The notes beneath the pieces were generated by a model that did not search any database, was not told the origin of the DNA, and was given only the letters and a program-made list of their open reading frames with translations. A stretch of 64,000 nucleotides of DNA, taken from positions 124,001 through 188,000 of the forward strand of contig CAKJVC010000088.1 of the NCBI GenBank assembly GCA_918026815.1. The letters run 5' to 3'. The stretch's first letter is position 1, and each line of letters opens with the position of its first letter. Shown here in pieces: positions 1,803-36,961 of this stretch. The position numbers were made by a program, and so were the translations under genes. The stretch comes from Chalara sp. BL73. Its lineage: Eukaryota > Ascomycota > Leotiomycetes > Helotiales.

Positions 1803-4800
1803 TTATTGGAATGGTTTAAACATATGACGCCGCTATTACCTTGGTATCAAAATCGGCTAATAGTGCAATAAATGTACATTTCAGTACGAAGTTGCTTAGT
1901 TGTTCTCTGCATTCCTGGATCGCAATGTGCTACGCCAAATGACTCGTTGACCGAGGATCAGAAACTCGGAATTTAAGACAAAGTAATAAAGTAGCTAGCA
2001 AATATCATCCTACGGCATTTTGCAGTTCATGAAAAAGCTGAAACATGGAGAGTCCTTAGTTCACAGGTCAAAGTAGGCTCTCTTCGAAAGCACTAAGTTA
2101 CAAACTATAAGATGATTTGAGAAGGTGTTGAGTGGTCGACTCCTTCCTGCTTATTAAAATTGCCATTGGTAATCGAGCATGCTGTTCCGATTGATTGTTT
2201 GCCGGATACACAAGTTGAGGCGGGCACCTGCTACAAAAAAAGCTAGGGTAATGAGATGTTATCAAGCTGGGATTGGGATTTGGTGACGGATAATATTTAG
2301 ATTTTCTCTACCTCCTGTGTATCAGCCTCGAGTGAATAGTACCTAAAGTTTTCAGAATGAGGTGCTTCAAACCTCTTACAGATTGGCAAGCAGGTATGGT
2401 AAGAGGGCAAGACTCTAGATGTGTCTTCCGAGCCTTGTCTTTGGACTTGCACTGAGGTAGCAAAGTAGAGTACAGAGGCTCGTCTATTGAGGCTTTTATT
2501 TTGAAAACAAATGCAAGTTTAGATCTGAAGTTAATATATCAAGCTACAAGGTGTCATTGTTTCATTTATTGTTGTCACTTTGGGGTCAGCAGTGTGCTAG
2601 ATCGAGATTTGTGTGCGCCAATTTCATCAACACCCACAAGACATAATTGACAGGACGCGGCAAATATGAAGGACAGCCTCAACAGGAATGAGGTGCATTA
2701 ATTGACAGGGACAACCAAAAGAGGAATGAGACAACAAGTCTGCTTCGAACGAGGCGTTGGAAGACAATAACCCATAGTCAATGTACTGTAGAAGAAAAGC
2801 ATATGCAAACGAGCTTGATCGAAGTAGATGCGGTAGCTCCTTCCCTGCAATCATGTTCATAGGCCATTGTTCTTGCCGTTTTCAGCAAGTGTAGGTCGAG
2901 ACGGATAACAGTGTCTTCGAGCTTGCTGTATGTGTAAAAGTCACAAACCAATGAGTCAGCTCCAGGCAAACCTGAACGCTCATGGTTTCTTAGTTCGGGA
3001 CACGCTCTCGGCCAATCCCAACTTCGTACCAGTATAGCACATCTGTTTGAGTCAATGACTGCAAGGAAGTCTTTCGTTGGGTCTGCTTGGTAAATGGATG
3101 AGCCAGCACAATACTGGTGTGGGATGAGTCTTTATCTTAGGATTGCTCTCTCGCCACATGCTTAAGGTTATCCGTGGTATTAGACTGTTAGTAGCAGCTT
3201 CAACCGACAATAGTTCCTCCATAGAAGTAACATGAATGCTAGAGTCTTTTTAGAGCAATGTTGTCCGTGGCGCGAAAGTACTGCCCAAGGCAGCGCTTCG
3301 TCGCATTGTGACAGTATATTTGAGATACTTGTATTGTGTTTATCTTCCTGACCGTTGCGAATGGAACTCTATGAGCGACTCAGAGAATCAGAATGGCTGG
3401 AAAGGCGTCGTATGCCGGCTGGCGAGTCGGAAATGTGGCTATTCGGATGGATTCAAAGGGTTCGGTGTTGAAGCTTTACCTGCGATGAGATGTTGTTTGT
3501 TGGTGGTGCCCACTGCTTGTCTAAGCCTGAAGCCATAATGCTCTCTTCGGTCGCATGACCTAATGACGGTCATACCAAAGGTCAAAATTCGATGAGATCT
3601 ACTAGTGACAACTTAACAGTCTTTGTAAAGGAGTAGGAGTGGCCGTCGGACCAGCTGTATCGGACACCAAGTGGACCCGCCATCATTAGCTTTGACTTGC
3701 TCTTTAAGTGCGCAATTACACAACGGCCTTGATGCGACGGGGTATATAATTAACCTTTCAAGCGGGTACCAAGGAGCGCCTGTCGAACACTATTGATCAC
3801 TGAAAATAAATTCATGAACAACGATGAACGAGAGTGTTGGCATAGAGTCACAAAGAAGATGCAAATATTGTACTTCAGCCAACAGTAAACAAGCAAATTC
3901 TTTCAGGCCTTCGGAGCCGCCATCTTTGCCAGAGACGGGCGACAGGAAGAGATTGGTTTGCCTCCCTTTAAACGTCAATGCTGCATTAAACCAATAGCAA
4001 GCATCGGTCCCTAACGGAGATTGGAGACTTTGAGTCAGTTGTTCTCGATCAGCGGTTCGCACCCTTTAAAAGGGTTCAAATCCACCAGTTTCAAACTTAT
4101 GGCATCATAGGCCAAGGGGGTTTGTCTTTTCATTTCTTTACCGAAATATGATTCCTTCTATCCTGGGATCTTCGGGTGTAATTGTGATAGTCGGGCAGAA
4201 AGGCAGAAAGCGGACTGCTCACCCTGCGGTTGACAGCCGTAGGATGAGCGCCTCGGTGACATCTGCTTCGATATTTTTATCGTTCTGAGAGAAAAGGTTA
4301 CAATTATGGGCTGCTTACCACGTAAGCTGTAGCATGTCCTGTACAACCCCATTGAATCAATTTTTGGATTTGGATATGGTTTCAATAATAATGATGGGTA
4401 ATAAGAATAAATAGCGCAGCATAATATCTTCCCCTCCTTTTCGGTGAAATCTTCCCAGATCGCCCCTTGGGTGGTGATGTTGGTGGTGGTTGTGGTGGAC
4501 ACGCCAACGTTTGCGGCTAAAATAAGCCTCAGGGGTGCAATGGATATGAGTGGTGGGGGGGGGAACAGGAGTCAGGCTGGTGGTGACGGTTCCTGCATAA
4601 GCGAACCGAATTAGCCCCTGCGGCACTGGAGAGGGACTTATTTGGCGGCGCTCTTTCGGGGGTTCTTAGGATGCCCATCTTAAAGTAACAAGCACTTCTA
4701 TGCCCGTCAATAGGTGGGATGGTTCCACAGTTAATCAACTTGAGGGGCTGCGGCTAGCCTGTTCGTGGAAGGTTCTCCCTCTTTTACTCCAGTGTGCCTC

Positions 4801-5209
4801 CCCCCCTGAAGATTACCTCTACTGTGCAGTACTGTCTGTACTGTACCGCTAGGGGACTGGCTGCTAAGGATGCATAGATCCCAGTGGATGGGCCTTCCTG
4901 GAGATGAGGAGTTGGCCCGCCGGTGCTCTCTGCACCAGATTACTGGCTATATCGATTGTTGCTGTGGGCATGGGCAGATCTTCCCTGCTGTTGGTCTGGT
5001 GGTTTAATCTCCCAGAACACTTATAGCGAAGTGTCGCCCTCCATCAGGGCTTCTTTTCTCTTCAGCCCAACAGCCCATCTTCACTGTTACTATACATTAA
5101 TTTTGACTTCGGTCGTCCATTCTTTTACAGAAACCCACTACTTTACACCGCTCTACAGCACCATCCCAATCACCTCCCAACACCAAAACAACCAAGCAGA
5201 TCTTTCAAG
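1803..5209. other. 3.4-kb intergenic region with possible gene relics
   Basis: No gene can be supported. On the minus strand around 2630-3130 several frames look protein-like in turn (for example QTDVLYWYEVGIG near 3000-3060 and TYSKLEDTVIRLDLHLLKT near 2880-2950). They switch frame and are interrupted by stops, as in a decayed gene, and I recognise no family. The last 250 bases (about 4950-5209) are CT-rich, as expected for the promoter and leader of the strongly codon-biased gene at 5210. Confidence 0.4.
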
Positions 5210-5858
5210 ATGCAATTCTCCGTTGTTACCGTTGCCCTCTTCGCTGGCGCCGCTATGGCTGTCAAGCAATCCACTATCTACCAGACTGAGGAGATCACCA
5301 TCACCAGCTGTGCTCCAACTGGTAAATTCACTGATATGCCACGAGCCAGAATATTAGCTAACGTGAGAAAAAGTCACCAACTGCCCTGCCGCCAGCACTG
5401 TCGTCAGCCTGACCAGCTACCCAGTTGTCAGCCCAACTGAGACCCCAGCTGGTCCACCATACCCAGTCTACACTCCATCCCCATCCTCGCACGCCAATGT
5501 CTCCGTGCCAGTCTACGTCCCATCATCCACCGCTGAGGGAGTAAAGACCACCCCCGTTCCAGTCTACCCAACTGGAACACCAGCCGCCCCACCCTCATAC
5601 TCTTTGAGCACCATCGAGATCTCCACCTGCGTGCCAACCGTGATCTACTCTACTGTCACCCTCTACCCAACCACCAGCTCAGTTCCAACCTATGCTCCAG
5701 CGCCATCTTCTACCGGCACCATCGTTGTCCCAGGAAACGTCACCTACCCAACCGTGCCAGCAACCCCAAGCACCAGCGAGTTCCCAGGTGCCGCCAGCAA
5801 TATCAAGGGCTCCTTCGCCGTCGCTGCTGTCGCCGGTCTCGCCGCCTTCTTCCTATAA
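5210..5858 (+). CDS. GPI-anchored Ser/Thr/Pro-rich cell-wall protein
   Basis: Predicted 198-residue secreted wall protein. Exons are 5210-5321 and 5374-5858 across a 52-base GT-AG intron. The N-terminus MQFSVVTVALFAGAAMA is a clear signal peptide. The middle is rich in Ser, Thr, Pro and Tyr with YP and VP motifs, so heavy O-mannosylation is likely. It has three cysteines, in ITSC, VTNC and STCVPT. The C-terminus has a small-residue patch (GAASN) and then a hydrophobic tail ending AGLAAFFL, a typical GPI-attachment signal. Codons end mostly in C (GTC, ACC, GCC, TAC), far more than in neighbouring genes, which with the CT-rich leader suggests high expression. It has no catalytic domain, so a structural or adhesive wall role is inferred. 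Confidence 0.85.
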
Positions 5859-7962
5859 GTCATTTACCTCATCTAGATGCCTCTTGTAGGCTATGGCTTT
5901 TACGACATTTAAAAGAAGGGGATTGGAGCGCTTTTGCTTAGATACCTAGAGTTCTCGCATTTGTGGGTTCTGCTATATACATGTAATTTCAATAATTCTG
6001 GGCATGGTCTTGCTGGCTTTGGTATGCATCATCCGGGGTTGGAGTCAATTTATTTTCGGGCTTGCATTTTTTGGTATCCAAAAAGGGTGTATGTTTTCGA
6101 TCTTCCAATACCGGGATGGTGTAGCTTAGCATGAAAGCGTCTATCGAATTCAATTTCTGATAAACATTTACCTAACCTTTCTTTTTCTGACCATTTTTGT
6201 TGCGTCTTATCTTCTCCAAGTGTGACTTCGAATTCTCATTAGTTGCGAAGTCGACCGTGATTCGATTGCGAGAGGGAAATTAATGCTGTTTCAAAACAGC
6301 GGAAGATTCGGACAATTGTTGAAACTGGAAGCGATAACTTCTCTAGTTTGGCGCGTGGTTATCATGCAACCTGCGGCTGGGAGATTACCTGTTCTGCAGA
6401 TCTTTCTGAGCATATCGGTGACTGAACATCAGATGGGCACGAGGGATAAGCCTGAAACTGTGAAACGAGCTTTCATCAGAAGGTGCAAGAGTTGGAGGCT
6501 GTGTTAATAAACGGGATTCCACATGCTGAGATGTTCATTAAAGATCGAGGTGGGACCTGGTCAAGGTATTTTAGATTCGTGTGAGTGCTTCAGATTAGAT
6601 TTCCTGGACTAGCTCGCAGAGTTTGACCTGACTGTTCTCAGTGAGCATTGAGCGCATTCAGCATCGCACAATTTGATTAGCTTAGTAGAACTGACCAAAC
6701 ACTCATTCCCTGACGACTGCTAACTTTTGGATCTTTATTCACAAACCCTGTGGACGATAGATTAGCAAGCATGGTCCGAATCTCATAATCGTTGTACTCG
6801 CTCGCGTCTAGAGAAGATATGCTGCCTTTTGTGATTGATACTTTCCGAAAACATGAAATTAGATGAAATGTACAGACCAGTCTCCAAGCTGGCGGAGCAT
6901 TAAGATAACCGCTCATTCTAAGCGTATTAGATGCATTATAAGCAGTAGGATCTAAGCAATGCGACTGGTATATGTCCAAAGCCCCTCAATTCATATTGAC
7001 GCTCAGCAAAAGCTATAATCTTGATATTCACAAGACACGCCGACAGCAACACTGACCTCTAGTGGCGGTTTAACCAATAGTTATGGCGTCTGCTTTTTTG
7101 GCTCTGAGAACAAGAGACACTGCCGTTTTGAATGAATTTGGTATTAAAATGGCCAACGAAACAATCTCTATGCAGTGAAAAATGCCACTCCGCAGGTGAA
7201 TAGCAACAGCGGCACATCAACATTGTCCAAAGGAAAGGCGGGTTCAGCATTTTCCAGAAACGACGCCAAAACTTTAAACTTCAAAAAGTTTTGATGCTTT
7301 ACAGATATATTTGGATGTATTCCGGCTTCTCTTGGCGAATACCCAGAATACAGGACCTGTTGTGCACTGCACAGGGGGGTTTCCGCTTTCAACCCTGTCA
7401 GCCACGCCTCGATTTTCTAATTTGGTAGCACCAACACTGCTGGGGACCAATGGCATTGTTGCTAAGTATAAACTGTCTATTTGTACAATACACACACAGC
7501 AAGCTGTGAACCAAAGATATCGCTGTACAATTGTTTATTTTGGCTTCTTAGTTTGGTTGCATTTCCAATGGCACGCCATATATACAGTAATGGTATGCGC
7601 GATTCCGAAAAATCCGCGTAATCCACATGCCCACGTCTTTTATTGATGTCATTTCAGCCTCGGTGCTGACATCTAGAGCTCCGTTTTAGTAAATTCTTCC
7701 ACCAAGCCTTCCAACTTGTCGCTGGTTCCAGAACCGCGAGCCCACCAAATCTTACAATATGTCGATACATAGGCATGCTAATTGGTTCACTGGCCATAAT
7801 CCGGTCAATCCGTCTTTCTTTTCGTCCGAACGCGATAATTTCCGCCACATCCGTAACCAGTCCCTCGACCCAACTCAGCCTCATATTCCTTTACCTCGCC
7901 GTAAACAAGGGTACCCAATTTCCATACATAAGCTCTACGTCTCATCGCGTGTGTGATGAATC
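5859..7962. other. Intergenic region, no gene supported
   Basis: Several 60-110 codon open frames exist on both strands. The most protein-like is on the minus strand at 6677-6980 (SASEYNDYEIR-type text), but it lacks an ATG and is not recognisable. It could be a relic. The interval includes the 3' UTR of the GPI protein gene and the promoter of the LCAT-like gene. Confidence 0.35.
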
Positions 7963-10674
7963 ATGACATGCGAGGGGAATAGAGACCATGTCATTCATAA
8001 TAGGATACAGTCAGGCGTGAGGGACTCTCTATCTAACAGCCCAATGGCACTCTTTACTCCTATGCCTCCAGCGGAGGGGTCAGCGACCACGGAAGCTGAT
8101 GATGTATACCCTTCCACCTTTGAGCCTCTGAGCGCAATGTCTACCTTTACCGACGAGGATGCGGAGTTGTTGATTGGACCTTCCATGAGTCGGGCAGCTA
8201 GTAGGCTCAAGTCACCCAGGACTCCTGCTGCCGAAAAACAAATTGCGTTGGAGGAAGCTATAGGATTTTTCGAGACTGATCCAGAGACGCCGCCGGCAGA
8301 TGAAGATGGTCCAGAACGGGAGATGAGCTTCAAGAAGACCGAAATTTCAACAAATTTCGTAGCAGAGAGTTTGCGTCAGGCGGATGCCGGTGGTTTTTCT
8401 TTAGGCAATCTTCCACCAAAATCGGAAACGGCAACAACTTCTAATCTCCCAATAACACCCTGGCATGCTGGTCCAAAGCCTCTAACAGCGCCAGCGGAGG
8501 GGTCTAAATCATCACTGCAGGCCGTTTTTGCGACTACCAGAGAACGCAAAAGGACATTATCTGGAGGGGCAGATGCGTTGAGGAAATTACTGCCAAAGAA
8601 CTTACCATCAATGGCACAAGTGGGAAACTATTTCACAACCGGCACATCAGGTTATATCCAGAAGGGGAAAGATTCAGGTTCCGCAAGTCCACAAAGGGAC
8701 TCTGATCAAGGGGTTTCTACTCTATCACCGACCTCACCAACATATAAAGAAGTAGCTCAGCCTCACCCGCCTCGCTTCCAATCTACTACTCCTCCTCCTC
8801 GCTATGAATTGGGGAAACCACGGTCTGTCCTGCGTGTGAATTCTGATGATTCCGTGCTTTACCACACGTTATCCAAAGCGTCCTCGCTTGGAGATGATTC
8901 TATGTTCGAGAACCAGCGTGTACAAGTGAATTCGAGAACCAAGGCAATACGAGATTCATTCCAGGATCGCTCTTCGTTCAGAATGCCAAATATGCCCAGT
9001 CTCCCCAGTCTGCCAAATTTCAACTTCAACATGAATTTCTTGAACAATGAAAGTACCACCATCAAGCCAAAATCAGAAGTAGGAACCGTGGATAAATTGA
9101 CAAGCACTACCAGGAAACGGACAGTATCACTTTCGAATCCCGTGGTGGCACCTAGTATCATTGGAGCAGCTTTATTGAGCCCAAAGACCGTTTCCGGCAA
9201 CACTATACCACCGGAAAGCCCTACGAAATTTTTAGATCGAGCTATCGAAGATCTTACTGGTGATGTTGTGATTATGGGCGGATACCGAGGCTCCGTCCTC
9301 CGGTCGAAAAAGACAGGTCGTCAAGTCTGGGCACCTGTCAAAATCGGTCTGAATATTCGAAAAGTGGACTTAGAAGTTGGGTTACAGCCTGAGGATGAAG
9401 AGCGAATGGAGGAAACGATATATCCTTCTGGCATGTTGAAAAATATTGGGCCTGTAGATATATCAAGGAGGCTCTTCAAGCGATTAAATGCGACAGAAAA
9501 TGCGCGTACTGGGAAGCTTAGGATCTGGGACTATGGATACGACTGGCGATTAAGCCCGCATTTGCTGAGCAGAAAACTTACTAAATTTCTTGAACAGCTA
9601 CCTTCTAACCGAGCATCCGGCAATGAAAAGGGAGCAATTGTCATTGCCCATAGTCTTGGTGGTCTAATTACTAGACATGTGGTCAATGCTCGACCTGAGT
9701 TATTCTCCGGGGTGATTTATGCAGGCGTTCCGCAGTCTTGTGTGAATATTCTTGGTCCATTGAGAAATGGCGATGCAGTGCTATTAAGTTCAAGGATTCT
9801 GACCGCTCAGGTCAACTTCACACTACGAACGAGTTTCGTGCTGCTCCCAGAAGATGGCGCATGTTTCGTGGATATTAACACGAAGGAGAAATACCCTGTC
9901 GATTTTTTTGACATTGAAGACTGGATCAAATATCGGCTCTCACCGTGTACAGACCCGCCTCTTCCGCCATATTCGCAACGCAGCAGACTCGTTGGTAGTC
10001 TACTCAATCTCAATCTCTCTGGAAGCGTGCTCAACCTTTCCAAATCTGGCAAGAAATCCACTGGCTCCATCACCCCTCCACACACAGACTCAAATACCAG
10101 CAGTGATGCGGGCAGAGAAGCCTATCATCACACCCCGAAAACCACGCGAGCCGCAAACGTGATGCGTGACGTAGAGCACGGCAAAGATCGTACTTTGGCA
10201 CCACAGATAGGCAATTCAAACCCAGTGAATATTGGCCAAGGTACAAACAGTTCCGTCTCAACGGCCGTCACCATCCCACGCGACAAGGCTATTGCCTACC
10301 TGCGACGCACACTCGTCGAGACCAAGCAGTTCAAGCAAGAGCTTCGTTTCCGGCCCGAGCATTCAGAGACAAATAAATACCCACCCTTCGCTTTCATATA
10401 CGGTAAAAGCATACCGACTTGCTGTGGTGCGAAGGTCGATGGTTTGGAGAGCATTCCATGCTCAGATGTGTATGATAATCTTGCCTTCGCGGCAGGCGAT
10501 GGGGTTTGTCTTGCAAAAGAGGCGATGCTTCCGCCGGGATACCAGGCTGCGAACGGAGGACGTATTAGGAGTGAGAGAGGACATGTTACTTTATTGGGCG
10601 ATTTGAATGCGGTTGGAAGAGCATTGGAAGCGGTAACTAAAGGTAGGGCAAAAGGAATTGGGCTGGGTAAATAG
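7963..10674 (+). CDS. LCAT-like lipase/acyltransferase, alpha/beta-hydrolase
   Basis: Intronless 903-codon frame. About the first 420 residues are Ser/Pro-rich and probably disordered. The hydrolase domain starts near residue 425 (VVIMGGYRGSVLRS). The nucleophile elbow is AHSLGG (Ser564). GDGVCLAKEAM supplies a candidate Asp (about 846) and RGHVTLLGD a candidate His (about 874), completing an LCAT/PLA2G15-type triad with the WDYGYDWRLSP segment typical of lecithin:cholesterol acyltransferase relatives. A variable Ser-rich insertion lies between residues 680 and 780. There is no signal peptide or obvious membrane segment, so an intracellular lipase or phospholipase is more likely than a secreted enzyme. 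An internal ATG at 8044 (MALFTPMPPAEG) is an equally plausible start. Substrate unknown. Confidence 0.85.
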   Translation: MTCEGNRDHVIHNRIQSGVRDSLSNSPMALFTPMPPAEGSATTEADDVYPSTFEPLSAMSTFTDEDAELLIGPSMSRAASRLKSPRTPAAEKQIALEEAIGFFETDPETPPADEDGPEREMSFKKTEISTNFVAESLRQADAGGFSLGNLPPKSETATTSNLPITPWHAGPKPLTAPAEGSKSSLQAVFATTRERKRTLSGGADALRKLLPKNLPSMAQVGNYFTTGTSGYIQKGKDSGSASPQRDSDQGVSTLSPTSPTYKEVAQPHPPRFQSTTPPPRYELGKPRSVLRVNSDDSVLYHTLSKASSLGDDSMFENQRVQVNSRTKAIRDSFQDRSSFRMPNMPSLPSLPNFNFNMNFLNNESTTIKPKSEVGTVDKLTSTTRKRTVSLSNPVVAPSIIGAALLSPKTVSGNTIPPESPTKFLDRAIEDLTGDVVIMGGYRGSVLRSKKTGRQVWAPVKIGLNIRKVDLEVGLQPEDEERMEETIYPSGMLKNIGPVDISRRLFKRLNATENARTGKLRIWDYGYDWRLSPHLLSRKLTKFLEQLPSNRASGNEKGAIVIAHSLGGLITRHVVNARPELFSGVIYAGVPQSCVNILGPLRNGDAVLLSSRILTAQVNFTLRTSFVLLPEDGACFVDINTKEKYPVDFFDIEDWIKYRLSPCTDPPLPPYSQRSRLVGSLLNLNLSGSVLNLSKSGKKSTGSITPPHTDSNTSSDAGREAYHHTPKTTRAANVMRDVEHGKDRTLAPQIGNSNPVNIGQGTNSSVSTAVTIPRDKAIAYLRRTLVETKQFKQELRFRPEHSETNKYPPFAFIYGKSIPTCCGAKVDGLESIPCSDVYDNLAFAAGDGVCLAKEAMLPPGYQAANGGRIRSERGHVTLLGDLNAVGRALEAVTKGRAKGIGLGK

Positions 10675-12905: not shown

Positions 12906-14265
12906 ATGCTCAGCAGCAGCATGCTCTTGTCTTCAATATTGGCATGTGCCTGTGCTACCGTAGCATCAGGTGCCACTTTCGCTCTGGGCCAGAAGTTTCA
13001 AATTATCTTGAATAGTATTCCAGATCTCTCAGCTGGCCCTTTGACGCCGGATGCAGTTGTCTTCGATGTAGATGCGATCGATACCCCCGCAACAACAATT
13101 GCAGGACTCAAAGCCGCTGGTAGGATAGTAATCTGCTACTTTAGTGCCGGGACATATGAAGCATGGAGAGCAGACGCACCCAAATTTCAAGCCTCAGACC
13201 TTGGGAAAACGCTCCCAGAATGGCCTGACGAGAAATGGGCCAGAATTGGTAGCACAAACGTGAGGAGTATCATGACAAATCGAATAATAATGGCCTCGGA
13301 GAAGGGGTGCGACGCTATTGATCCTGATAATACAGGTATGCTCATCTCTGGGAAAACATTACAGAGCGATGTGCCAATACAAAATCAGAGCTAATGCTAA
13401 TCCGTACTTAGATGGTTGGGTACGTCTCTTTGGTTTGTTCGGCCGAAGCAAGGCATTTGAGCTCTGAAATAAGGATTCTATGCCATTATAAAAAGTGGCG
13501 TATTACTAACAGCGCCTAGCAAAACGACAATGGCCTATCGCTCCAACAGTCTGATGCCGTGAATTATATAAAGTTCCTCTCCACAACTGCCGCAAAATAT
13601 GGTATGAAGACAGGACTCAAGAATTCTATAGGGATAATACCAGATGTCCTTGGAGTTGTGGATTTCGCAATCAATGAGCAGTGTTCTGCTATGATAGAAT
13701 GCGATAAATACGGCCCCTTTCTCAATGCCGGGAAGCCAGTCTTTCATATTGAATACCCGGCTACAGTGCCAAATGTTTCCGTCGCAGATCGAACAGGCGT
13801 ATGTACCAAGGACGGGAAGGAACAGATGAGCACAGTACTAAAGTACCTTCTCTTGGACGGGTGGGTCCAATATTGCGATGGGTCAATAGCAGAAACCCGT
13901 ACGACAGCTGGCATTCCAAATCCGCATTATACTTCAAGACCTACTACTTCCAAGACAACCTCCACGTCAAAACCAACTACTACAGTAAGAACCACTACAA
14001 GGCCTACGACTAGTACTGCCTCTACGTCAAAGCCCACAACAACAAGTGTTCCAGGGGGTGGGTCGGGATGTAAATCGAAACATTGGGATCAATGCGGAGG
14101 GAATGATTGGAAAGGGTGCACAGTTTGCGAGGTAATTCTCTTCCTATCTAGCATCTATATTACCGTCGTAGTACTTTTTATAATCCTGACCTCAACTACT
14201 AACATATATAGGCTGGATTTACGTGCAAAGCAGTATCACCGCCTTGGTACTATCAATGTCTCTGA
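12906..14265 (+). CDS. Secreted GH114 endo-alpha-1,4-polygalactosaminidase-like enzyme with C-terminal CBM1
   Basis: Predicted 367-residue secreted glycoside hydrolase. Exons are 12906-13335, 13412-13419 (8 bases only), 13520-14131 and 14212-14265. A signal peptide (residues 1-22) precedes a GH114 barrel with IVICYFSAGTYEAWR and the family motif DPDNTDGWQNDNG, which exists only if the micro-exon is included. After the barrel comes a Thr/Ser/Pro linker (about residues 265-325). A CBM1 module then begins HWDQCGGNDWKGCTVCE and is completed by exon 4 (AGFTCKAVSPPWYYQCL), with its cysteines and aromatic binding residues intact. Family enzymes cleave galactosaminogalactan-type polymers; CBM1 normally binds cellulose, sometimes chitin. 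Intron 3 has a TACTAAC branch site. Final substrate is inferred. Confidence 0.9.
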
Positions 14266-15266
14266 GATCGTGCTTTCGACGGCATTTAGTCTATCAAGAA
14301 GCTGCTCTCATCTGATGCTTACCTAGAAAAACACACGAATTCTTTAAACAACTCTATTCCATAGAGCTCTGTGCGGCTTTCTTTTCAATCGCTTTGTCAA
14401 CTTGATGCTTTACAGTGCAATGTCGGTCGAGTGACTTGAGCTTGCCGACCCAGTCGACAGGCGCAGGCAACAGCAGTCTGACCGATCTTAATTCAAGCTC
14501 GGATTATCACTGATTTCCCTCTGCATATACAAACCTCCATGATTTTCTGCCGTGTATGGAAAATATAATAATCTGTCACAGCGTTTGCTAAGTGGGTCGG
14601 TTCGATGGGGCACTGCTATCTCCTACCTATGTAAAATATATCTTTTGTATTGCTTCAAGAGACAGACCAAGAAGGAATCTCTGGACACCCGCCTTACGAG
14701 TGATCGCTACTGATAAAGGCGAGCCTGACAAGGGGTACTTAGTTTATCTGGCAGTTGGCCTCCAGGCCCAACATCGGGATTGGAAGTTAAAATAGATTCA
14801 TCTCTCCTCGCGAAGGAGAAAATTCATATGACACCCACCGACTGGTTCAAATAGCAGTGCGGAACTGGTTGAAAATGACGGGAGAACTCATTCGATGGAG
14901 TTTCGAGACACTAAAGCAGACTGCAATAATATTTTGTATGCACGAGAACGGAGATGAATGCACCCTATATCTTCCTCATGTTCAATGCATTCTCAGCCTT
15001 CAAGGCTTTCAAGAGGACTTGAGGAGCTACTAAGTGAGCTACCCAAAGTCGGAGATTATTTCGCGCGGATAGTGGAGATACAATTCCTGTGCCCGAATTC
15101 TCATAACCGTTGATTGCAATTCTTGTAGCAATCCACCTAATCTTGCTATATGAAGTACGATGCCATTGACCGACAAGTGGAGCACTATAGAAATGCTTGT
15201 TGCCTAGGCAATTGATTTTGATTTGTCATATTACATTTTAAATCCGCGAAAAGGTACTTTCCGCAT
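14266..15266. other. Intergenic region, nothing recognised
   Basis: This interval holds the 3' UTR of the GH114 gene and the upstream flank of the tRNA-Val gene. Open frames are short and unconvincing. Confidence 0.4.
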
Positions 15267-19704: not shown

Positions 19705-20530
19705 TCAGCATGCACATCCCTCTTTGGATGCATTGTCCCTTGGTCCTGTCAGATTAACTCTCGATTGATCCTCGGATCTGGCTGATGCTGGAGTGGCGCC
19801 AGGACCTCTGGCCCCCTTCAACGACGTTTCTGGAATAGCATTCGCGATAGCTGTAAAAACTTCCGTAACGTTCGTGCCCAACTTCGCACTGGTCTCGAAG
19901 AAAAGTAAACCCTCTTCCTCCGCATAAGATTTCGCCTCAGCTGTCGAAACCTTTCTGGCATCTCCATCCGTATCCCCTCCATCTGCAGTATCTTCGTCTC
20001 TATCATCTCCTAATGGAGTATTCGAACTTCCGGCTTCGTTTGTCAAGTCTAGTTTGTTGCCAACCAATGCGATAACAATACCTGGTGACGCCTGTCTTTG
20101 CAGTTCTGCGACCCAGTGCTTGGCTTTGACGAGAGATGTAGGTTTCGTGAGATCATATACAACCAAGGCTGATTGCGCATTTCGATAGTACATTGGGGCT
20201 AGAGATGCGAAGCGTTCCTGTCCTGCAGTATCCCATATTTCAAATTTGATTGTCCGTGTGGGGAGATTGCATTTCTGGGTTAAGAAAGCAGCTGTAATCT
20301 GAATTAGTGATTTGAATACCTCATGTCGGATGTCACCTACCTCCGATAGTTGGCTCCTTGTTCTCCTGGAAATCGTTGTTCACAAATCGTAGAACGAGCG
20401 ACGACTGAATTTTATTAGCATATAAAATCCTTAGCCCAGCATTCTCGAAGCCTACCTTTCCCACTGCTGCCTCACCAAGTAGAACCAGCTTCACACTCGA
20501 ACTCGGCTTCGGTGCTGTCGAATCTGCCAT
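19705..20530 (-). CDS. Rab5-like small GTPase with an acidic insertion
   Basis: Predicted 241-residue endosomal Rab GTPase (Vps21/Ypt5 group). Exons are 20530-20456, 20404-20341 and 20291-19705. G boxes are GEAAVGKSS (P-loop), EPTIGAAF (switch I effector region with the Rab5-type AAF), WDTAGQERF (switch II), GNKLDL and ETSAK. The C-terminus GCAC ends in a CxC double geranylgeranylation signal. The stretch between NKLDL and ETSAK carries about 30 extra residues rich in Asp/Gly ([12 protein letters not shown]), making it longer than the usual 210-220. Rab5 proteins direct early endosome fusion through GTP-dependent effector binding. It is divergent from KRI1, 305 bases apart. Confidence 0.92.
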
Positions 20531-23028: not shown

Positions 23029-24117
23029 TTACACGCCTGGCATCCCAATGATGCTTCTGAAGCCTGGTACTATCCGTGGTAAGAAGTATACAACGAATAT
23101 TCCACTCAGCGCAACTGTAAGGCCAGTAAACTATATAAATATCAGCATCCGGTTTGAAGCTTAAACCATCAACTTTAGATAAGGGCATACCTTTTCAAAC
23201 CAAGTATGGAAATAAGCGGCTGTCATCAGCAGCATATAGACACTCAATGTTGCAACGCCAAGTACCCCTTTCGCAGCAAAAGTCCACTCCCCGCTTCTTT
23301 CCAATATACCCCCCGGCTGCGCCTCCACAAATGCACTCTTAACAGCGCCATCCGCCATGACTACAGTCCGTTCCTCTCTTGTCTTCGCATCTCTCCATAC
23401 CACATTTAGCACCTCTTCTAATAAGAACATGCTTCCCAACACTAGCAAGAAGACGTGCCCAGAGATATCATGCCCGCCTTTCCACTTCCCGCCTGCAGCT
23501 TTGCATGCTAAACCAGTCAAAAATTGTTCCGCAGAACCCATCTTCACCACTCCCGCGTCCGCCAGTTCCACGAGCTCACATTTCCCCCCCGTAAGCAAAA
23601 ATCCCCGATCAATTATTGCGGGGCCAAAAAACCACTGCGTGATAAATATCCACCACACCGTCAATATTCCCCATCTCAGCGCTCCTTTTATACGCTTTGT
23701 CGTGAGTTGAAGTGAAGGTCCTGTGGAAGGGTGGGTGAACAGAAAAAAGAAGTAGCTGAAGGTAACCCATGCCCAACCTTTTTTCACAAACAGAACATTG
23801 AAGAGATTGGTCTTTTTTGCGAAGTAGGATGGCGCAGTGTTCGCATAGTGGGACTGTGTCGCAGCGTTGTAAGGCGAGGTGCGCGTAGCGGGATCAAGGA
23901 GCCCGAAGAGGGTGCCTATTATTAAGGTTGTCGGATATATCGACAAAAGACCTGTTTCCAAAGTGGTCGGCAGAAAAGGCGATCTCCTGGATGACATGTT
24001 CGGAGTGGATGTTGGTGTTGAGGCCGTGTTATTTGTCTCTGGAATTGAAGGAGAAGATCGAGCTTTCGGGTTCTGGACTCTTTGTGAGCGTCGAGGTGTC
24101 ACAGACGGTGAGTCCAT
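23029..24117 (-). CDS. FIT-family (FITM2/Scs3) ER membrane protein
   Basis: Predicted 342-residue ER protein. Exons are 24117-23191 and 23130-23029; the second adds FTGLTVALSGIFVVYFLP, a last transmembrane segment that the single long frame misses. After a polar 45-residue N-terminus come about six hydrophobic segments. GGKWKGGHDISGHVFLL and TAAYFHTWFEK carry the two conserved histidines of the family, which resemble the lipid-phosphatase active-site histidines. FIT proteins act as acyl-CoA diphosphatases and support lipid-droplet budding and ER phospholipid balance. It is transcribed divergently from the EXPERA gene, 352 bases away. Confidence 0.9.
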
Positions 24118-24469
24118 TTGATTGTATGTTATAACATGAGGATTCTAGAGCTAGATTGAATAGAGGTATCGTGAAGAAGTGGCAAAACAATGTTGTCGAG
24201 GACAGATGTTCCCCGTGTTAGGGGAAATTTGCTTTCAAGTAACTCGATGACGTTGCGGAAAAGGGCCTTGCTCTGCCTTGCCAAGACCTCCAGCCTCGGG
24301 ACATAACAAACCACGTGATACAAACTCTCCCCACATTTTGGCACAACTCTGGCTAAATTCGATAGTGCGACTGTTGGCCCGACTTTGCACGAAGCTATTG
24401 TTTACAAACAAAGAAATTAATTCAACCGCTTCTAGAGCTTGGAGCAGCCTTTCGCTGTGGAAAAACACC
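24118..24469. promoter_or_regulatory. Shared promoter region between FIT and EXPERA genes
   Basis: 352 bases separate two divergent start codons for ER lipid-related membrane proteins. An open frame runs through part of it upstream of the EXPERA ATG but is not needed for the domain. No clear operator was seen. Confidence 0.45.
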
Positions 24470-25310
24470 ATGGTTTCAACTCGTGGCCACCCCCAAGAGT
24501 TCCCCGAACCTTACTTGGCGTCATCGAAGTCTAGTCCAAATAATCGTAAGGATGTCATACGCAGCCACAAATGGGCCCACACTCCATCGAATCTGACACT
24601 CATATGGCTCTTTATCTCACTGCCGTTGGTTGTATGGGACGCCGGTTACGTTTTGCTACGACCTCATAGCATGCCAGGCGGGAAATACCATTGGCCTCTC
24701 TGGCAGCCATATGAATTGTATGGACGAGTGGACTACATATATGGATGGAAAGCGTTTAACGCCAAGAATGGATTCACAGCCGCACAAACCTCATTGAATG
24801 TCGTTGAGACATTGATGTATATATATTATCTATACATTGTGTTTGTGCATGGCAAATCGTCAGTGGTGCAAGGCCGAGGTGCTCCAGCCGTATCAAAGGT
24901 TGGCCTTTTGGGCCAGCAACGTTCTGTGAGTGGTCCAACAGGCATACTCGCATTACTGGTGGTGTACAGTGCTGCCATTATGACCCTCAGCAAGACAGTT
25001 CTATACTGTTAGTTTGTTCTTGACTTACTAAAGTTCCTCATTGACTTATACCAGGGGCAAACGAGTACTATTCTGGCTTTGAAAATATCGGCCACAACAA
25101 TGCCAGGGATTTGCTTTTCTTGTGGATCATTCCAAAGTAAGTTGATATGAAGAATCTCTGAATGAAGCTTACTCTTTCAGTGGTGCCTGGCTCGTCCTTC
25201 CCGCCTATATTATATATGTGGCTGGAAGTGAGATATCTCAAGGTCTCTTGGCTTCTGCCGGGGCACCCGTCAATTCATCTGAAGAGAAGTCCTCTGGGAA
25301 AGCAGAGTAA
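24470..25310 (+). CDS. EXPERA-domain membrane protein (emopamil-binding/sterol isomerase-like)
   Basis: Predicted 249-residue multi-pass ER protein. Exons are 24470-25007, 25055-25136 and 25181-25310. The start ACCATGG at 24470 has excellent context; an in-frame ATG at 24278 adds 64 unlikely residues. The EXPERA region has four hydrophobic segments: LIWLFISLPLVVWDAGYVLL, a helix at NVVETLMYIYYLYIVFV, ILALLVVYSAAIMTLSKTVLY, and AWLVLPAYIIYVAG. WPLWQPYELYGRVDYIYGW and ENIGHNN-type loops lie between them. EXPERA covers EBP sterol delta8-delta7 isomerases, TM6SF2 and TMEM97. This fungal group is usually annotated only as EXPERA, so isomerase activity is not assumed. Confidence 0.85.
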
Positions 25311-25820: not shown

Positions 25821-26018
25821 GCCTTCATGGCGCAGGTAAGATTATCTTTGACTTCCATGCTGAAGGACTTTCAATAACATTATCATAGTGGTAACGCGTC
25901 GGTATGTTCTCAGCAAACTTCGTAATCTATTCATAACTAACAATATCTAGCACTTGTATGAGTGTTGCACCACTCTTCGTAAATGCGAAGATCCCTAGTT
26001 CAATTCTGGGTGAAGGCA
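25821..26018 (+). tRNA. tRNA-Thr (anticodon TGT) interrupted by three insertions
   Basis: The mature segments are 25821-25835, 25889-25901, 25951-25958 and 25983-26018; together they give a 72-base tRNA. The acceptor stem GCCTTCA pairs perfectly with TGAAGGC. The D arm is GCGCAGTGGTAACGCG, the anticodon stem TCGCA/TGCGA with loop CTTGTAA, the variable loop AGATC, and the T arm CCTAG-TTCAATT-CTGGG. T8, A14, G15-C48, G18G19, A21, T33, T54T55C56 and A58 are all present. Insertion 1 (25836-25888, 53 bases) starts GTAAGA and ends TCATAG. Insertion 2 (25902-25950, 49 bases) starts GTATGT, has CTAAC at 25937-25941 and ends TCTAG. Insertion 3 (25959-25982, 24 bases) is at the canonical 37/38 site with a GAGTG/CACTC hairpin. 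Insertion 1 interrupts box A; box B is intact. Confidence 0.82.
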
Positions 26019-26037
26019 ATTATTTTTTATCTTTTTA
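26019..26037 (+). terminator. Pol III terminator of tRNA-Thr
   Basis: Two T-runs (six and five T) follow within 20 bases of the discriminator base, as expected for Pol III termination. Confidence 0.7.
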
Positions 26038-28255
26038 GGACTTGTTTTCAAATGCAAAATTATCGACTCAGCCTCTGTTCATGTCATTTACTATTACACA
26101 AGTTGTTGCAATACTATTTTATGGCGGTGGGATTGTGTGTGCTATTGAACAGTGTTTACGCTAAGTCAATAAGCGAGTAGCTTCAACGGGGTAAGAAGAA
26201 CAACTCAGTCACCCAGTGTGAGTTTTATCCTCACAATGCAATTAGATTTTACATGTCGAAGTAATTCTAGCAAAGCTCTGGTGGATTATTGAAATATTTT
26301 GACCCTTTGCTAGTCCTCACAACTCCTCTCAGATATTTTGAGGGTGGGCCATGGAACACTAACACATTTCAGTTTACATGATCATTGCTGCCTCTAACTT
26401 CTAACACGATTGCCTTGTTTCTCAACTTACCTACCTGCATATTATCCTCACTGCCGCGACCTGGTCGGAGCCATTTAGGGTCTTCATTGACCTTTGTAGA
26501 AGGTATGGGCAGCTCGTGGAAGCGAGACATTGGTCTGAAGTCACTGGCCAATGAGCAAGCGGCAGAAACACGATTCAGTAAGCCTGTGCATGAGAAGGTA
26601 GAGAGGTCCATGCGTTGAACCACTCTCATTACCTACGCATGGCGTCATTGCAAAATTATGGCAATGCCACACATGAGAAGGAAGATTTGAAGCTTTCTTG
26701 TTGCTCGCTCTGAGCGGTTAGTTAGCGCCAAGACTTCTCAGGGTAAGTTAGTTGTAAAATTTACCTGAATGGACTTGTATCTGATCAGATCACTGTATGA
26801 AAACATCACCTACTTTTAAGATGCCCTTAAAATATATATCTTATATTAGCCATATTTCGTACCGCCTCTCACCTTCGACTCGCTGTTCTCGTCTCACGAC
26901 TCGTACTCAATCAAATGCCAAGCTTCCTCCCACTCCAGAGCAATGGTTGAGCATTGCTAGCTTCCCGTCGGATGACCAAGTCAGGAACAGCTTCCAGGCC
27001 ATGTGCGCGTACTTCAGCCTCTAGGAGCGCCGTGCTGACGATTGGATTCTCGCCCACCACACCCAATACCCGTTCCCTCCTCGTCGCACTTTTTGTTTTT
27101 CCATCGGACCGCTTGTGCCACCTCCATACCAACACTGAACACTCCAGTCCGACAAGGACTTACAGCGGTTCTCTCCTAACCTCCTCACCATCAGGGAATA
27201 TTATGGCTTAACCCCCCATCCTAATCCTAACACAGATACATATGGTATCGATATGCTGCTATGAGAAAGTAATAAGTGTCTGCAGAAGGCAGGTAAGGGA
27301 TGAATGGCGAAAGGCTTGGCTCCGGCTGGTCCGTCTCGGTCCACCTTTTTTTGTTTGCAGGCGGCAGAAAATAAGGGCCGTTTCTGGTTGCATGCTCAGC
27401 ATCTTTACCTTTTTCCCCAGGCCGCCCTGCATCTCCCTGCATCAATTCTTCCCGGATAAAGAAGTTGAATGACAAGAGAGAGTGAGCTATAGGTTGTCGT
27501 TTGGGTCGGCCTCATCCTAGCACAAGAGTGGCTGCATCAAGGGTTCACTGTCGGACTCACTAAAAAAAACCCCAGGGGGAATTCCTCCCGCGTCTTTCTT
27601 TCACAACGATATCTCAGCATCATCATCATAATCATCCTCCCCCTTCATCTCCTTCTTCTCGATCCCCATTCACTTTCGGGATACTGTCGCGTGCCTGTTG
27701 ACAGGTGATGCTGAAGTGAGACCTTTCCTTCGACCCCTCCAAAGCCACGATAAGGACCCCTACAATCGATAACAACCCCCTGTATCCCACTCTGAATCAC
27801 GCCAAATGTCTGGCATATGACCTTTCTATGTGCGATACTCCATTGAAATCTAAGATATCTCGAATTTCTTTATCGATGTTCGCAAAAAGTCGCAAAACAT
27901 AGATGTATGTGGGTCCCAACGTTGGGACTGTCAGAGTTGGGGCATTTCTTACAGCGCAACCATTAACACATCCTACTACCTACTTATTTGTCTGACTACA
28001 CGATACCTCTTAGGCAGTAAACAACGATCCCGCAGTGGCCTGGGCAATTAAGATCCAGATTCTTTCCATTGCGGAGTATCTTTATCTAGTTTACTGCTTT
28101 TGGGATTCTGGTAGGAACCTTATAGCAACTGCGGAACAGATATTTCTATGGGGTTTACCCCGCCCTTCGAAGACGCCGAGAAGATCCTCACATCATCTCA
28201 TATCAGCAACTTTTGATCGGGGATTGAGTAGCAGAGCTACGTCGATTTACTAGTG
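26038..28255. other. Long leader/promoter region of the F-box gene
   Basis: No coding region is supported. From about 27550 the plus strand becomes CT-rich with CATCAT runs, typical of a long fungal promoter and 5' UTR. The perfect palindrome at 27913-27928 is listed separately. Confidence 0.4.
27913..27928. promoter_or_regulatory. Perfect 16-bp palindrome GTCCCAACGTTGGGAC
   Basis: The dyad is exact over 16 bases and contains CCC-N6-GGG, the inverted half-site layout used by Zn2Cys6 regulators. It lies 328 bases upstream of the F-box ATG. A binding role is inferred only. Confidence 0.4.
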
Positions 28256-34482: not shown

Positions 34483-36961
34483 ATGGCGGCTTCTACAAAG
34501 AGGAGAATCAATGATGATTTCATTCTCACAATCTCCGATAACGAAGAAGACCTCGAAAATGTCGAGGAAGAGGTCGCATCTCTACCTCACTCTAGCAAGA
34601 AACGCAAGCGCGAAGAAACCTCGAATGGAACCTCAAAGAAGAGCAAGAAGTCGAAAAAGAACAAACACCAGGTAGAAGAGGAGACAGAAAATGGGAATGA
34701 AGGCATATGGGGCGCGAAGGAGGAAGACGATGGAGCTATGGACTCTGATTTTGAGTTTGCTCTCGAGGCGGATGGAGATAATAATGGTTTGGAGGAATTC
34801 GAAGGCTGGGGATTTGAGAGTGCTAAAAGGAGTCTCAATGGCAGCAAAGGCGACAAGCAAGCTGTCGACATTGACGAAATTATCGCGCGCCGAAGGGAGA
34901 AAAAGAATGGTGGGAAATCTGTGGAAGTAGACGCAGAAGGAGCCAAAGTAGAGGAGGAGGAGAAGGAGACAGACATTGACTCAGACAGAGGATCAGAAGT
35001 TCAAGATGAGAATTTGGAAGAAATAGTCCTCCAAAATGCTGAGGACGAATTCTTAGCTGAAGATGGTTTCGGAATGGGTGTGGGTTCAGATGAGGAAGAA
35101 TCTGGGAAAGAAGATATCGTCGAAGAATCGGATAACGAAGAGAATGAAGCGGAAGAGGGAGAGTCAGACGAAGATTCTGTTGCTTCAGCTGTTCCACATC
35201 CGGATGATCTAGACTCAGACGCATCCTCAGACGAAGGAGAGAAAGATGATCCAGAGGAAGCTGCTCGTAGAGAAGCATTCTTTGCTCCAGAAGAGAAGCC
35301 CACAAAAGGATCAAAGCCGTCAATTTCGTCGACATTTCAGACCATGTCATTGTCACGACCTATTCTGCGAGGGCTTTCGGCTGTCGGTTTCACTCAACCT
35401 ACACCAATTCAGGCGAAGACAATCCCTGTTGCTTTGCTTGGTAAGGATGTGGTTGGAGGAGCAGTCACTGGTTCAGGTAAAACTGCCGCGTTTATTGTTC
35501 CAGTTCTGGAACGTCTGATTTATCGCCCAAAGAAGGTACCCACCAGTAGAGTTGTTATCCTTATGCCCACCCGTGAATTGGCTATTCAATGTCATGCGGT
35601 AGCTACAAAGCTGGCAAGCCATACAGATATCAAATTTTGTTTAGCAGTCGGAGGTCTCAGTCTCAAGGTGCAAGAAGCAGAGTTGAGACTTCGCCCAGAT
35701 GTGATTATCGCTACTCCTGGACGTTTCATCGATCATATGCGCAATTCTCCAAGCTTTACAGTGGATACGCTTGAAATTCTTGTGCTAGACGAGGCTGATA
35801 GGATGCTTGAAGCTGGTTTTGCTGACGAATTGAATGAGATTCTCACCACTATTCCGAAGTCGAGACAAACTATGTTGTTCTCTGCGACCATGACTTCATC
35901 TGTAGATAACCTAATTCGGGTTGGTCTCAATAGACCAGTCCGACTAATGGTTGATTCTCAGAAGCAGACCGTAGGAACACTAGTGCAAGAGTTCATCCGT
36001 CTACGGGCCGGAAGAGAGAAGAAGCGAATGGGATATCTTTTGAATTTATGTTCTAATGTCTACACTGATCGAGTAATTGTCTTCTTCCGACAAAAGAAGG
36101 AGGCACATAGAGCGCGAATCATCTTCGGCCTCTCTGGTCTCAAAGCTACCGAGTTACACGGTAGCATGAGCCAAGAACAGGTAAGACAGCTTCCCGTACT
36201 GAATCGCAGCACTAACATACATATAGCGTATTGCAAGCATGGAAGCATTCCGCGATGGCAAAGCTTCCTTTCTCCTTGCCACGGACCTGGCATCCCGTGG
36301 TCTTGATATAAAAGGCGTTGACACAGTAATAAACTACGAAGCCCCGCAATCTCACGAGATCTACCTCCACAGAGTCGGTCGTACCGCAAGAGCAGGGCGT
36401 AACGGACGAGCTTGCACCCTAGCCGCGGAACCTGACCGCAAGATTGTAAAGGCAGCCGTAAAGAGCGGACGCGCACAGGGGGCAAAAATAGTGTCTCGTG
36501 TCTTGGAAGCTGCGGAGGTGGATGTGTGGGCTGAAAAAGTAGATGAGATGGAAGAGGAGATTGAGGAAATTCTCAAGGACGAAAAGGAAGAGAAGGTGTT
36601 GCAGCAGGCGGAGATGGAGCTCAGGAAGGGGGAGAATTTCGTCAATCACGAGGATGAGATAAAGGGTAGACCTAAGAGGACGTGGTTCGAGAGCGAGGCA
36701 GAGAAGAGGGCTGCGAAGAAGACCGGGAGGGCGGAGTTGAATGGCGTGGAGAGTATACTGAAAAAGAAGCCTGGGAAATTGAGTAACAAGGATAAAAAGA
36801 AACTTAATGATAGAGACCTGAGGAGTGATGGAAAGGTGTGGAAGAAGGGACGCGCGGAGAGGGACGGTAAAGGTGCGCTGGAGAAGGGAAAGAAGAAGGT
36901 CAAGGGAGGTAAACCTGCAAAGACTGGTGCGAGGCCAAGCAAGTTTGAGAAGAAAAGATAG
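34483..36961 (+). CDS. DRS1: ATP-dependent RNA helicase Drs1 (DDX27), ribosome assembly
   Basis: Predicted 810-residue nucleolar DEAD-box helicase. Exons are 34483-36180 and 36227-36961; the 46-base intron falls inside [15 protein letters not shown] (motif IV/V region). An acidic N-terminus of about 280 residues precedes the Q motif GFTQPTPIQ, the Walker A GSGKT (Lys about 333), PTRELA, TPGR, DEAD (about 436-439), [14 protein letters not shown] and [14 protein letters not shown] Lys/Glu-rich tail with [10 protein letters not shown] and [11 protein letters not shown] follows. Drs1 works in 60S subunit maturation, remodelling 27S pre-rRNA particles. All catalytic motifs are intact. Confidence 0.95.

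Follow-up and report, generated by a model that had tools for sequence, protein, structure and literature searches.

Nuclear tRNA introns normally reside at position 37/38 and are removed by the tRNA endonuclease and a ligase, and spliceosomal introns are, on the usual view, confined to Pol II transcripts apart from rare cases in U6 and rRNA. A tRNA-Thr(TGT) gene of the ascomycete Chalara sp. BL73, in which two mRNA-type insertions accompany an ordinary 37/38 intron, raises the question of how such a precursor could mature. A preliminary description of the locus had proposed that the spliceosome may be needed beside the tRNA endonuclease. The gene lies in a window of 64,000 nucleotides, i.e. 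the whole stretch of DNA that was analysed (G000:C82:124001-188000), within an assembly of 58.66 Mb and 199 contigs.

Read from the sequence, positions 25821-26018 of the plus strand comprise a tRNA-Thr(TGT) gene with two mRNA-type introns and one ordinary 37/38 intron, arranged in the order GCCTTCATGGCGCAG, 53 nt, TGGTAACGCGTCG, 49 nt, CACTTGTA, 24 nt and ATGCGAAGATCCCTAGTTCAATTCTGGGTGAAGGCA, followed by runs of six and five T. Joining the four exons yields a 72-base tRNA-Thr with the anticodon TGT. The individual parts are as follows:

25821..25835, plus strand: exon 1, positions 1-15 of the tRNA (5' strand of the acceptor stem, 5' strand of the D stem, A14 and G15), pairing with 26011-26017
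25836..25888, plus strand: intron 1, mRNA-type, 53 nt, in the D loop after position 15 (GTAAGA...AATAAC...ATAG), absent in the paralogue on contig C14
25889..25901, plus strand: exon 2, remainder of the D arm and start of the anticodon stem, identical in the C14 paralogue
25902..25950, plus strand: intron 2, mRNA-type, 49 nt, within the anticodon stem (GTATGT...CTAAC...CTAG)
25937..25941, plus strand: CTAAC resembling a branch site, beginning 14 nt from the end of intron 2
25951..25958, plus strand: exon 3, end of the anticodon stem, C32 and T33, anticodon TGT and A37
25959..25982, plus strand: ordinary 37/38 tRNA intron, 24 nt, not GT..AG
25983..26018, plus strand: exon 4, 3' strand of the anticodon stem, variable loop, T arm whose B box is uninterrupted, 3' strand of the acceptor stem and A73
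26023..26028, plus strand: T6 run resembling a Pol III terminator, with a second run, T5, at 26032-26036

The coordinates that the preliminary description had given for the gene and its three insertions proved exact to the base, and the 72-base product and the T runs after it were confirmed. Its placement of two insertions away from 37/38, in the D loop and the anticodon stem, was confirmed as well, with the C14 paralogue in agreement. The branch-like A that it had noted in both stands for insertion 2, where CTAAC begins at -14, but insertion 1 is devoid of CTRAY and features AATAAC instead. The spliced tRNA adopts a complete cloverleaf with a structure score of 34.0, in which positions 13 and 22 are unpaired, C13-A22 of the D stem not being a standard pair. 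Likewise, position 32 and the third-last base of the 24-nt intron do not pair. The B box and the T6 run are present, and box A is split after G15 by intron 1. The gene is located between, and not within, the nearest reading frames of at least 120 codons, which end at 25012 and start at 28232. Among the neighbouring genes, an SCS3/FIT protein encoded at 23161-24144 partially matches P0023 (JGI source; 98% identical over 64% of the query), which suggests that the sequence of a very close relative exists there. Calycina, Oculimacula, Cadophora and Lachnellula are among the best named relatives of this protein; the first two belong to the Helotiales (Leotiomycetes), so that the fungus is very probably a filamentous member of that class. 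When ARAGORN and Rfam were applied to the window, the Thr gene was missed in place and the sole tRNA called was a tRNA-Val at 15266.

A score confined to tRNA structure constrains both extra insertions: for insertion 1, 13 of 4640 possible deletions scored at least as high as the claimed one, and for insertion 2, 2 of 4230, the claimed deletion being included in each count. For insertion 1, an adjoining placement without splice sites scored slightly above the claimed one. Within each set of equal or better deletions, the claimed placement alone has GT..AG ends. Further constraint is provided by a second gene, since BLAST of the 198-base window gene against the genome returned itself and C14:804370-804511 and nothing else. 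This second tRNA-Thr(TGT) gene lacks insertion 1, so that the borders of the latter are fixed to within a shared AG. At precisely the site of insertion 2 it carries an insertion of 54 nt (GTATGT...CTAAC...CCAG), and its 37/38 intron, in the same place as the 24-nt one of the window gene, measures 29 nt. The site of intron 2, after 28 exon bases, is also shared with a tRNA-Arg(CCG) gene on C60. The mature Thr copies differ at only 4 of 72 positions (5, 6, 66 and 67), which constitute two compensatory acceptor pairs. Between the copies of intron 2 the resemblance is only weak, 16 of 500 shuffles aligning equally well. By this pattern of substitution, selection acts on the mature tRNA-Thr(TGT) and the inserts drift freely, as true introns would.

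The preliminary description had pointed to uninterrupted tRNA-Thr(TGT) genes elsewhere as a finding that would speak against its reading; searches by BLAST and by two anticodon-arm patterns revealed none, and the two loci recovered are both interrupted. With the spliced 72-mer as query, the matches comprised only the 37-base last exons of the window and C14 genes. One of the anticodon-arm patterns gave 44 matches, one doubtful match being examined with its flanks and the others judged from the matched string. The doubtful one, a TGT-like candidate at C27:1093891, was discarded by eye as having no surrounding tRNA.

Interruption of this type extends well beyond threonine. A partial survey of nuclear tRNA genes recovered 26 mRNA-type introns in 21 distinct genes, next to 54 genes without them; the share of interrupted genes (21/75) is rough because the survey is partial. 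The interrupted genes are:

Thr(TGT): C82, two introns; C14, one intron
Gln(TTG): C1 and C86, one intron each
Leu(TAA): C82:923892 and C18, one intron each
Leu(CAA): C129, one intron
Pro(CGG): C75, two introns; C51, two introns
Pro(AGG): C143, three introns
Pro(TGG): C139, one intron
Arg(TCT): C170, one intron
Arg(CCG): C60, one intron
Ala(CGC): C118 and C83, one intron each
Ser(CGA): C127, one intron
Ser(TGA): C121, one intron
Lys(TTT): C121, one intron
Lys(CTT): C62, one intron
Val(TAC): C84, one intron
Val(CAC): C33, one intron

The mRNA-type introns, up to three per gene, are found in the D arm, in the anticodon stem, between positions 33 and 34, in the variable region, before the T stem and in the T loop. 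In addition, 13 of the 21 interrupted genes and 21 of the 54 others contain a 37/38 intron. The longest arrangement is that of the tRNA-Pro(AGG) gene at G000:C143:65127 (plus strand; L112), which spans 373 bases with three mRNA-type introns and a 37/38 intron, one of the mRNA-type introns being 175 nt long and one lying directly before the T stem. In the Pro(CGG) gene at G000:C75:25611 (minus strand; L120), a GT..AG intron is situated between positions 33 and 34, immediately 5' of the anticodon, where structure alone leaves the borders loose. The GT..AG intron of the Lys(CTT) gene at G000:C62:990685 (L139) lies in the T loop and splits the B box, and a near-copy of Lys(CTT) at G000:C57:26036 (L138) lacks one C of the T arm. 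The loci C51:361566 (L119) and C187:300325 (L127) represent the same interrupted Pro(CGG) gene with the same upstream sequence, i.e. a duplication or an unmerged haplotype.

The survey relied on B-box plus T-run patterns, followed by reading of the surrounding DNA. The patterns matched 200, 69, 33 and 62 sites, as compared with 76, 16, 21 and 51 for the reversed-pattern controls; in view of these high control counts, many matches are due to chance, above all in the 62-match set. Part of the 200 matches and all nuclear ones of the 69 and 33 sets were read. From the 62-match set four sites were chosen by eye, three of which are interrupted tRNAs, and some of its other sites were already in the survey. 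A separate candidate scoring for the survey covered 63 of 2453 candidates. The number of 54 intact genes is a script count, in which genes with the same 40 bases upstream were merged and from which the window tRNA-Val and a Pro(AGG) gene on C7 are excluded. Near-copies on C187, C57 and C33:158756 do not figure as separate genes, and neither count includes C62:908702 (L095), C170:108837 (L116), C112:449883 (L129) or C55:963791 (L133). Within this partial survey, nuclear tRNAs for Asn, Phe and Tyr were missing, as was a sound one for Asp; the gene at C112:449883 is Asp-like with a poor acceptor. Several further tRNA loci were noted alongside. C115, C188, C189 and C192 are tRNA-rich, unlike nuclear contigs, and C115 (98.8 kb), on which several tRNAs occur twice, has the appearance of the mitochondrial genome. 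A tRNA-like gene with the anticodon CAC and a 6-nt 37/38 insertion occurs on C10, C124 and C185 (L024, L025 and L132), its T arm and tail being identical across the three contigs. Four tRNA-Gly(GCC) genes (L050, L060, L094 and L098) each contain a 37/38 intron of 24-30 nt.

At the level of sequence, the cleanest proof of the intron borders is given by three exact intron-free paralogues inside the same genome. Excision converts Lys(TTT) of C121 into the gene on C49 (74/74), Pro(TGG) of C139 into that on C5 (73/73) and Lys(CTT) of C62 into that on C141 (73/73). A placement test across the class, which scored stems and invariant bases only for 2928-8424 placements per intron, put the claimed placement first, alone or tied, in 14 of 22 introns; in the remaining 8 it was outranked by 1 to 11 alternatives. 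For all 26 introns the median number of equal or better placements was 4, the claimed one included. Structure alone is loose in places, with 102 equal-or-better placements for intron 2 of Pro(CGG) on C75 and 193 for Leu(CAA) on C129. The combined chance figure (log10 of about -42.6) is indicative and not a clean probability, because the GT..AG placements had been picked by eye before scoring. In a blind run that allowed one free deletion at each of 54 T-arm sites, and in which the upstream sequence of each site was shuffled once for comparison, nine single-intron genes reached scores of 32.5-34.9, as against 29.5 at most for the shuffled sequences. The top set contained a GT..AG placement in 5 of these 9 genes, the one for Leu(CAA) differing from that claimed; for the remaining 4, a placement shifted by a few bases came out marginally ahead. 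This run left genes with two or three introns unsolved, and some interrupted genes (L066, L093, L111 and L124) were taken to have long 37/38 introns. ARAGORN assigned the right anticodon to none of the 21 genomic forms; after removal of the GT..AG introns it called a tRNA in all 21 and the right anticodon in 15. In the other 6 spliced forms, both Thr genes included, it mis-set the 37/38 intron and thus the anticodon. Hence, such genes can escape tRNA finders designed around 37/38 introns.

The signals within the introns point to the machinery that may remove them. All 26 begin with GT and end with AG, a placement constrained by tRNA structure but picked by eye, and all 26 have G at +5, in keeping with complementarity to U1, the most frequent 5' ends being GTAAGT (7), GTATGT (4) and GTAAGC (4). 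The 3' ends read TAG, CAG and AAG in 15, 10 and 1 introns, respectively. CTRAY occurs 14-23 nt from the 3' end in 21 of the 26, at 14-18 nt in 20 of these, and is absent from intron 1 of the window Thr gene and four other introns. Lengths fall between 48 and 60 nt in 24 introns, the other two measuring 78 and 175 nt. For comparison, four mRNA introns of the window were read by eye:

36181..36226, plus strand: mRNA intron, 46 nt (GTAAGA...CTAAC at -15...ATAG), in a gene that we take to encode a DEAD-box (Drs1-like) protein
20405..20455, minus strand: mRNA intron, 51 nt (GTAGGC...CTAAT at -14...TTCAG), in a gene presumably encoding a Rab-type GTPase
20292..20340, minus strand: mRNA intron, 49 nt (GTAGGT...CTAAT at -16...TACAG), in the same gene as 20405..20455
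13420..13519, plus strand: mRNA intron, 100 nt (GTACGT...CTAAC at -14...CTAG), in what is presumably a GH114-like gene

These four likewise feature CTAAC or CTAAT 14-16 nt from their ends, and three of them are 46-51 nt and one 100 nt in length. Ordinary 37/38 introns, on the contrary, show GT..AG in 0 of 34 cases (13 in interrupted and 21 in other genes), and in 26 of the 34 the third-last base pairs with position 32 as expected. A single tRNA gene can thus hold two kinds of intron, which differ in position and sequence.

The extra insertions might also be ectopic tRNA introns of the kind found in Cyanidioschyzon merolae and nucleomorphs, which the tRNA splicing endonuclease cuts at bulge-helix-bulge motifs; cases in the D, anticodon and T arms are known there from the part of the source consulted (PMC4090602). 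The fungus evidently uses 37/38 introns with the expected 32/third-last pair (26/34), and the corresponding pair is present in 13 of 22 extra introns, a frequency at which this single pair fails to separate the two intron kinds. A four-pair central helix beside the intron ends, however, was found in 0 of 22 extra introns, a test for which 37/38 introns were not run as a positive control. Moreover, the endonuclease is not known to use the GT..AG ends and +5G common to all 26 introns or the CTAAY present in most, and excision by this route is regarded as very improbable. Self-splicing group I or group II introns were rejected on account of size, 25 of the 26 introns measuring 48-78 nt and the longest 175 nt, as opposed to the some hundreds of bases that such a core needs. 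Derivation from one shared mobile element or introner was rejected as well: at E <=0.05 the introns are mutually unrelated except for two pairs of short pieces, 19 and 13 nt, around the branch point and 3' end, and BLAST of the whole window gene detects its C14 paralogue alone besides itself. We consider it highly probable that both extra insertions of this nuclear, Pol III-type tRNA gene are genuine spliceosomal introns of the U2 type, that they belong to a class represented in at least 21 tRNA genes, and that they are removed before the endonuclease acts. The earlier suggestion of a need for the spliceosome is supported and appears to be the best reading, given signals that recur in 21 tRNA genes, match the mRNA introns of the window and are missing from the surveyed 37/38 introns, and excisions that recreate three intron-free paralogues.

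As an alternative, the interrupted genes could be pseudogenes or dead copies that had acquired introns, the working tRNAs being supplied by intact genes. Such intact genes do exist for Lys(TTT), Lys(CTT), Pro(TGG), Pro(AGG), Ser(TGA) and Leu(CAA), as well as one fitting CAC; the tRNA-like copy at C170:108837 is decayed, and the Lys(CTT) copy on C57 is short of one T-arm base. On the other hand, the mature parts are intact, the Thr copies differ by compensatory pairs only and three interrupted genes equal their intact paralogue base for base; there is also no reason for a dead gene to retain GT, +5G, CTAAY and AG in unrelated introns. In the partial survey, nine anticodons were seen in interrupted genes only (TGT, TTG, TAA, CGG, TCT, CCG, CGC, CGA and TAC), of which the directed searches covered Thr(TGT) and Gln(TTG) and gave no intact gene for either. 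For an uninterrupted Gln(TTG) 5' half with up to 3 mismatches, the sole match was Gln(CTG) on C126; the other Gln(CTG), on C118, escaped this pattern, so a divergent Gln(TTG) copy could escape it too. That neither an uninterrupted Thr(TGT) gene nor an uninterrupted Gln(TTG) 5' half was found by these searches counts against the pseudogene reading, to which we assign a very low probability. Pro(AGG) was ruled out as an interrupted-only anticodon by an uninterrupted copy with a 37/38 intron at C7:716048, which weakens the strongest form of the dependence claim. To our knowledge, CAA has no other reader in standard decoding, and spliced Gln(TTG) is therefore likely essential. Some tRNAs of Chalara sp. 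BL73 probably cannot be made without the spliceosome, a requirement that would not be expected of nuclear tRNAs. In a broader sense, the data make probable, though with less assurance than the nature of the introns themselves, a lineage-scale invasion of tRNA genes by spliceosomal introns (21/75 in the partial survey), including recent gains in genes that have an identical paralogue free of introns, in which some codons, CAA via Gln(TTG) first, depend on a spliceosome acting on Pol III transcripts before the endonuclease.

Spliceosomes normally act on capped Pol II transcripts, and spliceosomal removal would be easiest to picture if the loci were Pol II transcripts, i.e. capped, spliced and non-coding, with tRNAs or tRNA-like fragments released from them later. 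The splitting of box A in several interrupted genes could be taken in the same sense. The B box, by contrast, is uninterrupted in 20 of the 21 genes, the exception being Lys(CTT), where it is split after G57, and T runs of at least 5 lie within 40 nt downstream of all 21 interrupted genes as compared with 42 of 54 intact ones, a comparison biased by the TTTT-requiring pattern with which most of the 21 were found. The window gene, moreover, sits between long reading frames and in none of them. Transcription of the loci by Pol II is given a low probability, marginally above that of the two preceding alternatives, and B boxes and T runs suggest that the interrupted genes are transcribed by Pol III. 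An upstream TATA compensating for the split box A was rejected, as TATA-like motifs occur alike in interrupted (9/20) and intact genes (21/54). T5 runs, as possible Pol III terminators, were present inside 2 of 22 introns tested, a number too small for statistical power.

Under Pol III transcription with spliceosomal excision, maturation of the Thr tRNA would proceed in three steps. Pol III would transcribe the whole 198-nt precursor by means of the internal B box and stop at the T run. Subsequently, the spliceosome would recognise GTANG, CTAAY and YAG, and introns 1 and 2 would leave the still-unfolded precursor. Only afterwards would the cloverleaf form, enabling the tRNA endonuclease and ligase to take out the 37/38 intron. 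This order is suggested by the requirement of the tRNA endonuclease for a mature tRNA body: an intron that interrupts the D stem or the anticodon stem, or that separates positions 33 and 34, blocks the fold that the enzyme measures, so spliceosomal removal should precede its action. If true, nuclear tRNA introns would have a new way of being removed, and translation would be tied directly to splicing capacity. The system makes testable the activity of the spliceosome on uncapped Pol III transcripts at large scale, Pol III initiation on a gene with split box A, and intron gain in genes without a reading frame, where presence/absence pairs with identical exons represent recent events.

In the open-access literature, as far as titles and abstract openings extend and with subscription papers and preprints outside the scope, no precedent for spliceosomal introns in tRNA genes was found. 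The stem 'spliceosom' is missing from the portions of text consulted of two tRNA-intron reviews (PMC4090602 and PMC4033280), and the consulted portions of PMC11782384 and PMC6461891 do not mention spliceosomal tRNA introns. Searches of viral contigs gave no match to an interrupted tRNA, and those of prokaryote genomes gave five matches, none of them a fungal-type interrupted tRNA.

Among the closest parallels is U6 of Schizosaccharomyces pombe, which is transcribed by Pol III and from which the spliceosome excises an mRNA-type intron, according to the excerpt consulted (PMC8917221, citing Tani and Ohshima). Like yeast U6, the tRNA genes described here are presumably Pol III genes with spliceosome-type introns; unlike it, they are not one snRNA gene but at least 21 tRNA genes with up to three introns each. 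mRNA-type U6 introns also occur in some other yeasts. The fission yeast case implies that spliceosomal removal from a Pol III transcript is possible in principle. In Chalara sp. BL73 itself, the six U6 genes above the cut-off (97-110 bases each) have no introns. The tRNA genes of Cyanidioschyzon merolae and nucleomorphs contain ectopic introns in the D, anticodon and T arms, which the consulted part of the review credits to the endonuclease (PMC4090602). Chalara sp. BL73 resembles these systems in having nuclear-type tRNA genes with several introns in the same arms and differs from them by GT..AG ends, +5G and CTAAY, with no four-pair bulge-helix-bulge helix among the 22 introns tested. mRNA-type introns also occur in the nuclear rDNA of ascomycetes. 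Introns of this kind were reportedly described by Rogers et al. in 1993. The introns of both gene classes are of the spliceosomal type and reside in structural RNA genes served by a polymerase other than Pol II, with the difference that those of rDNA interrupt Pol I rRNA genes and those described here tRNA genes. Finally, the ordinary eukaryotic 37/38 introns are present here too (13/21 interrupted and 21/54 other genes), and their fixed position and lack of GT..AG ends (0/34) distinguish them from the extra introns with which they share their genes.
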